Source of the DNA: Meiothermus sp.
Lineage (GTDB): Bacteria; Deinococcota; Deinococci; Deinococcales; Thermaceae
DNA length: 64,000 bases
Assembly: GCF_026004115.1 (NCBI RefSeq)
Contig: NZ_BPIM01000001.1
Span: 310,001 to 374,000, forward strand
Reading direction: 5' to 3'
A program made the translations under genes and the position numbers. Within the stretch, counting starts at the first letter, position 1, and each line of letters begins with the position of its first letter. Under the pieces are notes generated by a model. It had not been told where the DNA came from. It worked only from the letters and a program-made list of their open reading frames with translations, and ran no database searches. Positions 47,557-61,484 of the stretch are shown here, one piece after another.

Positions 47557-47723
47557 ATACCGGATTCAAAAAGATAATCATCCAAACCAAAGATCTCCCA
47601 GAGGCTATCTTTTTGAATCCTTGAGCACTCCCTTCCAAGGGGCGGTATCGCCCTCCGCTACGCGGATAACTTCGGCCCTGTTAGTTCGCCACCATACGGC
47701 GCCGAACTAACCGAATCTGGTAT
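47557..47723 (-). repeat. Element B, copy B3 (one module, reverse orientation)
   Basis: 167-bp copy in reverse orientation, with ends ATACCGGATTC and GAATCTGGTAT. It contains one copy of the internal 38-bp module. It lies between the M32 gene and the end of the ABC permease gene. Confidence 0.75.
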
Positions 47724-49580: not shown

Positions 49581-49735
49581 CTAGCCGACCTTCACAAGTG
49601 GCTTGGCGAGATTGTTCCAAAACACAGGTACTATATCGGTTCGAGTAGCTGAATTCAAAAATTCGCCAAACATGCACCATAGGCCTATACCCCAACAACA
49701 AATAGCTATACGCGAAATGCCAAATCTACCTACTT

Positions 49736-49901
49736 ACACCAGATTCAGTTAGTTCGGCGCCGGATGGCGGCAAACTAACAGGGCCGAAGTTATCCGCGTA
49801 GCGGAGGGCGATACCGCCCCTTGGAAGGGAGTGCTCAAGGATTCAAAAAGATAGCCTCTGGGGGTCTTTGGTTTGGATGATTGTCTTTTTGAACCTGGTA
49901 T
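49736..49901 (+). repeat. Element B, copy B4 (one module)
   Basis: 166-bp copy with one internal module. Its left end is slightly changed (ACACCAGATTC). It lies 152 bp from A3 inside the ABC transporter operon. Between A3 and B4 (49585-49735) I see no gene, only an AT-rich stretch. Confidence 0.75.
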
Positions 49902-49975
49902 TACCCACAAAGCAAGACCTGCGGCTTGGGAAGGTGCATTGGCGCTTTTGAAAGGCTTAATGCTTTGCTACGAAA

Positions 49976-51420: not shown

Positions 51421-51579
51421 CCCAATACCAATCCGTAAGAAACAGCACAGGAACAATAAATATTGAAAAAACCAAGCCGTTTACCAAACAGCCCATTGGC
51501 CATTCGCGCAACCGGATCTCATCTGATACTGATACCAGTATCGCCTTGCCCAACATTACGCCTCTGACGCTGATACGTA

Positions 51580-51707
51580 ATACCAGATTCGGTTAGTTCG
51601 GCGCCATACGGCGCCGAACTAACCCGACCGAAGGGAGTGCTCTAGGATTCAAAAAGATAGCCTCTGGGGGTGTTTGGTTTGGGTGATTATCTTTTTGAAT
51701 CCGGTAT
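51580..51707 (+). repeat. Element B, copy B5 (short form)
   Basis: 128-bp copy without the internal module, flanked by TAA on both sides. It lies 52 bp from A4 in the 667-bp gap between pntB and the ABC binding-protein gene. Confidence 0.75.
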
Positions 51708-51762
51708 AATATAACCGCACAGCCAACCCCGATAAACCGAGTACTCTTGGGAAACGCTCTAG

Positions 51763-54812: not shown

Positions 54813-54863
54813 TCGACCTCCTACTAAAACCTGCCGCAGTTTGGTATACCTACTCCGCAGGGA

Positions 54864-59126: not shown

Positions 59127-59170
59127 CCAGTTTTCATGCCCTCTGCAAGTGCAAACGGTATGCTGGCAGC

Positions 59171-61484
59171 ATGAATCGCACCCTCTGGCTTGGCCTGTTA
59201 GCCCTTGTACTCACCGCCTGCCCCAACCCCACCGCCCCCACCCCCCCCAAACATCACCATCAGCCTGAACCCAAGCAGCGCTATTTCACTAGATATTGGC
59301 CAGGAAAGAGTCATCACAGCCACCGTGAGCGGCACCAGCAACACCACCGTCACCTGGAGTAGCAGCGATCTTGCAGTGGCCAGCGTAAACAACGGTGTGG
59401 TTCGGGGAATGTCTGCCGGTGTGGCCACCATTACCGCCCGCAGCGTGGCCGATACCAGCAAGAGCGCCTCGGTGGAGGTAACGGTACTCGAGCCCCCCTC
59501 CCCTCCCCCTCCTGGCAATGGAGTCATTAGTGGAACGGTCAGCATTGCCCTGCAAACCTCGCTGCAAAGTGTTGACCCCAGTGTGCCTTTTGTAGACGGT
59601 GAGCTGATCGTAAAGTTCAAACCCCAGGTCAGCCTGCAGTCGCTAAACCGGCTTTCGGTTTCCGGGATAGAGCTGCAACAGGTCAGACCGCTGGGCATGG
59701 AGCGCACCTACCTCTACCGGGCCAACCTGAACCGCGCCGACACCCTCACACTTTTACAGTCGTTGCAAAACCGCAGCGATGTGGAGTACGCCCACCCCAA
59801 CTACATCCTTTCCGCCCAGGCCACCCCCAACGACCCCCAGTACCCCAACCAGCGCTGGCATTACGAAGCCATCAACCTGCCGGGCGCCTGGGAGATCGAG
59901 ACCGGCGCTTCCAACCCGGTCACGGTGGCGGTGATTGACGGGGGCGTGGTGGCAGGTCACCCCGACCTGGCCGGGAAACTTTTATCCGGCTACGACTTTT
60001 ATTCCAATACCGCCGACGCCGGCGACGGCGATGGCCGCGACTCCAACCCCGAGGATACCAGCCCCGGCACCGACTACCACGGCAACCACGTCACCGGCAC
60101 GGTGGGAGCCGCCACCAACAACAACCTGGGGGTGGCCGGGGTCTCGTGGGGCGCTAAAATCCTGCCCATCCGGGCCTTGAGCGGCGGCAATGGAACCCTG
60201 GCCGACGTAGCCGACGCCTTGAGATGGGCTGCCGGACTCAACGTGGCGGGCGTTACGGCCAACGCCAACCCGGCCAGGGTGATTAATATGTCGCTGGGTG
60301 GGCCCGTAGCCTGTACCAACGCCCCTGCACTACAGCAGGCCATCAACGAGGCCAGTAATGCGGGGGCCATTATCGTGGTGGCGGCAGGCAACTCCAACGT
60401 GGATGCCAGCACCTTCAGCCCCGCCGGGTGTAGCGGGGTGATCACGGTGGGCGCGACCAACGCTGCCGGCAACCGGGCCTCGTATTCCAACTACGGCACC
60501 CGGATTGATCTGATGGCCCCCGGCGGTGAACCTGCCGGACAGCAAGTGGTGAGCACCCTGGGCAGTGGGCAGTACGGGGGCAAGGCCGGCACCTCGATGG
60601 CTGCGCCGCACGTGGCGGGCGTGCTGGCCCTGATGAAAAGCAAAAAGCCTGCCCTGACCGCTGCCGAAGGGCTCTCCATCCTGAAAGAAACCGCCCGGCC
60701 CTTGAGCGCGACCCAGTGCAACCGGCCCAGCGGCAGTGAGTGCGGCGCGGGCCTCATAGACGCACAGGCCGCCCTGGCCCGCCTGAACACCCCACCCCCT
60801 CGCTCGCTGGTGCTCTCGGCCAGCCCCAACGCCCTGACCCTCAACACCGGCGCGAGCGCTTCCGTTACCCTCAGCATCAGCCGTACCAACTTTAGCGAGC
60901 CGGTTGCCCTGAGCGTGAGCGGGCAGCCCAGTGGCACCACCCCCAGCTTCAATCCGGCCAGCCCAGTTACGGGCAACAGCACCACCATGACCCTTCCGGC
61001 GGGCAGCGCGCCCGGCACCTATACCCTGGTGGTCAGCGGCAGCGCCAGCGTGAGCGGACAGACCGTGCAGGCCGAGACCCGCATCACCCTGACCGTAGTG
61101 CAGCCCCCCACCACCCCACCTCCTGCCCAGAACGTACAGGGCACCCGCATCTACTTCGATGCGGTGTTGCGAGAATCCCCCACCCTGAGCCTGTTGCTGG
61201 ACTTCAATCCGGTGGTGATCAACCAGACCGGCACCCAGGCGCCTTACAGCCGAAACCAGCTTTCGACGACCGGGCTCTTGGGATACCGCATCTCGGCCTG
61301 GAAGGATGTGAACAACAACGGCACCCAGGATGTGGGCGATTTATTCGGGTGGTACAGGACGAATGGCAACATTGCCACCGTGATGCCGAGTGCCAGCAAC
61401 ATCAACGTGGTGCTCGAGCCCGTTCTCTCCACCACCCTCACCCGAGAAAAGTGGCTAAAGCAGATGGGCTACCCGGCCCGCTAA
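59171..61484 (+). CDS. Subtilisin-like (S8) lipoprotein with a frameshift in a C8 run
   Basis: Secreted serine protease. The ATG at 59171 encodes a lipoprotein signal (MNRTLWLGLLALVLTAC), but the protease is in the next frame; the two join within C8 at 59241-59248. One C fewer would give an uninterrupted protein of about 770 residues. Domains in order: BIG2-like Ig (nt 59255-59490), a prodomain with a VDGELIVKFKPQ start (59590-59810), then the S8 catalytic domain with VAVIDGGVVAGHPDL (59925), YHGNHVTGTVGA (60075) and GTSMAAPHVAG (60589). A C-terminal beta domain begins about 60800. Without the frameshift, translation could start only at 59205 with a poor, signal-less start. Confidence 0.8.

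Follow-up and report, generated by a model that had tools for sequence, protein, structure and literature searches.

The window, the 64,000-nucleotide stretch of Meiothermus sp. DNA analysed here, carries a surface protease gene whose lipoprotein signal peptide and protease lie in different reading frames. This break is explained, on the balance of probability, by a recent real indel in the proline-rich linker that joins the two parts, and not by a dedicated switch. Whether real or a sequencing artefact, it is most probably an ordinary, singleton change in the length of a low-complexity linker. The genome comprises 3.35 Mb in 3 contigs, and the window corresponds to contig 1:310001-374000. The features of the locus, in window coordinates, are as follows.

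59159-59164, + strand: TATGCT, a -10-like element exactly 6 nt before the ATG, recognised by alignment and predicted to serve a leaderless promoter
59171-59221, + strand: lipoprotein signal peptide MNRTLWLGLLALVLTAC with its lipobox, read in the sequence and kept in orthologues
59171-59362, + strand: truncated product as assembled, 63 aa, comprising the signal and an out-of-frame tail (from translation)
59205-61484, + strand: protease reading frame, lacking a signal peptide of its own and open from 59202 (from translation)
59222-59249, + strand: C-rich proline-coding linker (C3, C4, C5, C8), the frameshift region, whose length and sequence vary widely among orthologues
59227-59230, + strand: C4, aligned to C6 in M. 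hypogaeus; the best-supported site of length change (-2)
59241-59248, + strand: C8, aligned to M. hypogaeus with no length change (ACCTTCCCCGAAC versus ACCCCCCCCAAAC)
59280-59477, + strand: Big_2 (bacterial Ig-like) domain, Pfam PF02368, E 8e-5
59565-59801, + strand: fervidolysin-type prodomain, Pfam PF22148, E 4e-6
59919-60725, + strand: subtilase catalytic domain (Peptidase_S8), Pfam PF00082, E 1e-55

The signal begins with the ATG at 59171, and its lipobox cysteine is encoded at 59219-59221. Directly after MNRTLWLGLLALVLTAC comes the C-rich stretch TGCCCCAACCCCACCGCCCCCACCCCCCCCAAACATC, which contains the run of eight C described in a first-pass annotation of this DNA. The signal frame runs through C8 to a stop at 59362, giving 63 residues in total. 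The protease frame is uninterrupted over ~745 codons and ends at 61484, with no further stop codon seen in it up to that position. The separation of signal and protease into two frames, on which the first-pass annotation was built, is directly visible in the letters and their translations. The Asp (VIDGG), His (DYHGNHVTG) and Ser (GTSMAAPHVAG) motifs are all present in the translated S8 domain, and the closest solved structures are subtilases, the best being 5yl7. By domain and catalytic motifs the protein belongs to Peptidase_S8; as assembled, it has no lipobox signal in frame.

Close homologues of the protease gene occur in all 17 other genomes of the genus that were compared. Signal and protease share one frame in 14 of the 14 orthologues that are readable across the linker, meaning those with neither a contig gap nor a frame break between the two parts. 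The lipobox is also in frame with the protease in all 39 further homologues and paralogues, two of which lie in the same genome. Because the signal is in frame throughout these 14 orthologues and 39 homologues, we regard the gene as broken as assembled, in agreement with the earlier description of its product as a lipoprotein protease that is off in this assembly. Two other S8 lipoproteins of the genome (L120 and L129) keep their signal in frame, and loss of the broken protease should therefore be tolerable.

The locus otherwise resembles the lipoprotein S8 proteases of other Thermaceae. The lipobox signal, linker, Big_2 domain, fervidolysin-type prodomain and S8 domain are shared with, for example, the orthologues of M. 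hypogaeus and M. luteus. Most members of the group also have an MFS gene upstream, and several have an rlmH-like gene downstream. Unlike in these orthologues, the length of the window linker is not a multiple of three. The orthologue linkers are short stretches joining signal to protease and are highly variable in length and sequence. C8, or a comparable run at the same position, is found in no orthologue; G011 has a C7 closer to the lipobox and is in frame. Four orthologues (L015-L018) are without Big_2, so that the linker runs straight into the prodomain, and the N-terminal part of this protease family thus appears to be easily lost or gained. Long glycine runs separate the N-terminal domain from the protease in L116 and other paralogues; these low-complexity linkers are all in frame.

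Elements resembling the -10 hexamer are found at the same spacing in the aligned orthologues of the genus, matching TANNNT in nearly all of them and reading TACGCT in M. taiwanensis. Scanning the promoter for a sigma-70 consensus gave no match, and the leaderless -10 was recognised by orthologue alignment. A -10 element adjacent to the open reading frame, giving a leaderless mRNA, is a common layout in Deinococcus-Thermus (PMC12340547). Given this layout and the 6-nt spacing, translation should start at 59171.

We next consider where in the linker the length change sits. The closest relative is M. hypogaeus DSM 23238, which is 97% identical upstream. Aligned to it, the window is two C short at 59227-59230 and has gained or lost zero bases at C8, where the pure run of C arose by substitution at equal length. 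The M. hypogaeus assembly is itself split inside the linker, one contig ending in TGCCCCAACCCCCCACCGCCC and another starting with CCCCCCACCGCCCCCACCTTCCCCGAACATC, and its linker is in frame once the two contigs are joined via a 13-base overlap. Compared with G005, the next relative, the window linker shows a net gain of one base instead of the loss of two seen against M. hypogaeus. The first-pass annotation held that a change of one C would restore the frame. Loss of one base at C8 does formally join signal and protease, but a net one-base loss anywhere from the lipobox to ~59250 would serve equally. There are no stops in either of the frames concerned, so the frame could change anywhere in the linker and C8 has no special claim; it is only one among several possible sites for the shift. 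C8 as the cause of the break is thus not supported by the M. hypogaeus alignment. A homopolymer beside a frameshift does not by itself establish a switch: here, comparison with the nearest relative puts the length change in a different run, ~14 bases upstream.

The protease is under purifying selection. Its dN/dS against M. hypogaeus is 0.172, and polarised changes give nonsynonymous to synonymous counts of 34:66 on the branch leading to the window genome versus 31:45 on the sister branch. An old pseudogene was considered and rejected, as the 34:66 ratio gives no sign of relaxed selection on the window branch and the protease frame is free of other stops. The low dN/dS and a window branch constrained like its sister imply that the break is recent, erroneous or confined to part of the population.

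From these observations we infer a biological and recent indel, and the absence of any protease product. The gene would encode a cell-surface lipoprotein subtilase transcribed from a leaderless promoter. Its C-rich, proline-coding linker between the lipobox and the Ig-like domain would readily change length via slipped-strand replication, and a recent length change in this isolate that was not a multiple of three would have separated the frames of signal and protease. Compared with M. hypogaeus, the run at 59227-59230 would have lost two C, and a base-calling error in the C-rich stretch would give an identical picture. Translation would then yield a lipopeptide of 63 residues in place of the protease, so that one of several related proteases would have lost its function in an isolated event.

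A sequencing or assembly error, with the true linker in frame and the protease made normally, is a possible but somewhat unlikely explanation. The linker is C-rich, low-complexity DNA, the M. hypogaeus assembly breaks at the same exact spot, and an error would fit a protease frame that is intact over its whole length and selected as strongly as in the sister lineage. Lone frameshifts confirmed by homology are expected to be mostly sequencing errors (PMC3711429). The present case resembles such singletons, which stem from error or recent indel, in being a lone, homology-confirmed shift at no conserved site; it differs from them in that the same linker carries an unrelated shift in a second species. 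We compared the surrounding DNA with M. hypogaeus, after a comparison with G013 over 200 kb had given few collinear genes and noisy frameshift candidates. The 52 neighbouring orthologous genes (~48 kb of coding sequence) agree well with M. hypogaeus, and no other true frameshift was seen among them. One frameshift candidate, at 54823, proved spurious, as no conserved reading frame covers that position. Among the 16 other C/G tracts of at least 8 that a 254-kb sample of genome stretches contains, nearly all sit inside long open frames, and homopolymer miscalls more typically alter one base than drop two from a short C-run. The sequencing error allowed for by the first-pass annotation therefore stands as a rival, made less likely by the agreement of the neighbouring genes. 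With 52 neighbours free of frameshifts the assembly looks good, which tips the balance, short of proof, towards a real indel.

The first-pass annotation saw in C8 the layout of a phase-variable surface protein. Slipped-strand changes in the tract would toggle the lipoprotein protease, and the assembly would have caught the off state. As in the phase-variable surface genes of Neisseria, Campylobacter and Bordetella, a homopolymer lies early in the gene, directly 3' of the signal of a surface protein, and is reversible in principle; purifying selection on the gene persists, and a second species is out of frame in the same linker. Homopolymers of at least 8 in Neisseria meningitidis are mostly variable by deep sequencing (PMC5084427), so length variation at C8 may occur. 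Unlike the switches of those three genera, however, C8 is not longer than expected by chance, is absent from relatives and is not the site of length change against the closest of them, and all the comparable orthologues are in frame. The 254-kb sample contains 17 C/G tracts of at least 8, compared with about 29-56 expected under Markov models of order 1-3, and C8 has 178 start positions in the whole genome (93 forward, 85 reverse). In high-GC Bordetella, C/G tracts exceed chance only when longer than 8 (PMC1891110). The single C/G tract of at least 10 in the whole genome is a G15 located elsewhere. CCC is the commonest proline codon (2988 of 6775), and a C8 in a polyproline linker is therefore unsurprising. 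The genome also encodes MutS and MutL. A tract that no orthologue shares, of a kind common and usually harmless in a genome with MutS and MutL, argues against the switch layout, and we judge phase variation at C8 unlikely. If C8 were a true switch, a free-living thermophile would be varying the phase of a surface protease by means of a homopolymer; in the collection of papers searched for Meiothermus together with phase variation, no relevant report was found.

The second out-of-frame case is the orthologue of M. taiwanensis DSM 14542, which has lost 7 nt in the same linker relative to G007. This shift runs in the opposite direction to that of the window, and there is no C8 there. The M. taiwanensis promoter region is also interrupted: an upstream contig carries the MFS gene and runs to CAAGACCGGGTAGTAGAGTGAGATTATC, and a downstream contig resumes at GATAATCTCACCTAACTACCCAAGACCG. 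These contig ends show inverted ends and a short duplication, a sequence signature that suggests an IS element inserted in the promoter, between the MFS gene and the protease ATG. The pieces flanking the interruption are L040 and L043/L046, on contigs C40 and C7. With a 7-nt loss beside an apparent IS insertion and no tract change, the M. taiwanensis case looks like gene loss rather than a switch and speaks against phase variation. As a second species has an unrelated shift there, the linker itself may be indel-prone. A broader reading would make the whole C-rich linker, including C8, a contingency site toggling the Meiothermus lipoprotein protease, with the window species and M. taiwanensis as snapshots of the off state; we consider this improbable.

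Expression despite the DNA frame, whether by slippage of the transcript on C8 or by a +1 shift of the ribosome at proline codons, is very unlikely. The shift needed is indeed +1 (a one-base loss), and proline tRNA is prone to slip by +1 on consecutive CCC codons. The first-pass annotation invoked Thermus dnaX, a gene of the same bacterial family in which the frame also changes at a run and transcripts slip efficiently on A9/T9 (PMC1088944). That parallel fails, as dnaX-type slippage involves an A/T homopolymer of about 9, unlike the unconserved C8 present here, and no relative keeps the site. In the studies of transcript slippage that were read, precedents concern A/T runs, with none for a C-run. 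Programmed ribosomal frameshifting would call for a site conserved among orthologues; here the arrangement is found in no orthologue and M. taiwanensis is shifted the opposite way, so that a conserved recoding site is lacking. Nor is there a stop close after the run, the signal frame ending ~110 nt downstream. An internal start in the open protease frame (TTG 59205, or GTG and ATG codons from 59325 on) giving a cytoplasmic form is more improbable still, because no Shine-Dalgarno-like sequence was found before TTG 59205, the predicted mRNA is leaderless and begins at ATG 59171, all relatives use the exported form, and the combination of S8 domain, prodomain and Ig-like domain is typical of exported enzymes.

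Two further observations concern other parts of the genome and of the window. The G15 lies outside the window, at contig 1:1388277-1388291 (L001:1501-1515), 39 nt 5' of the ATG of a lipoprotein gene, and is flanked by TTGAGA and TAGACT. Relatives carry G9, G6, G8, G10 and G9 at this position. The spacing between the TTGAGA and TAGACT hexamers is 17 with the G9 of G008 and 24 in the window genome, which has G15 plus an A. Judged from its sequence, the G15 is a strong candidate for promoter-spacer phase variation, and as a candidate switch it is stronger than C8 in the same genome. Within the window, short dispersed repeats occur at 47557-47723, 49734-49907 and 51574-51709; they have many copies in M. 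hypogaeus and G005 and are probably small mobile or MITE-like elements.
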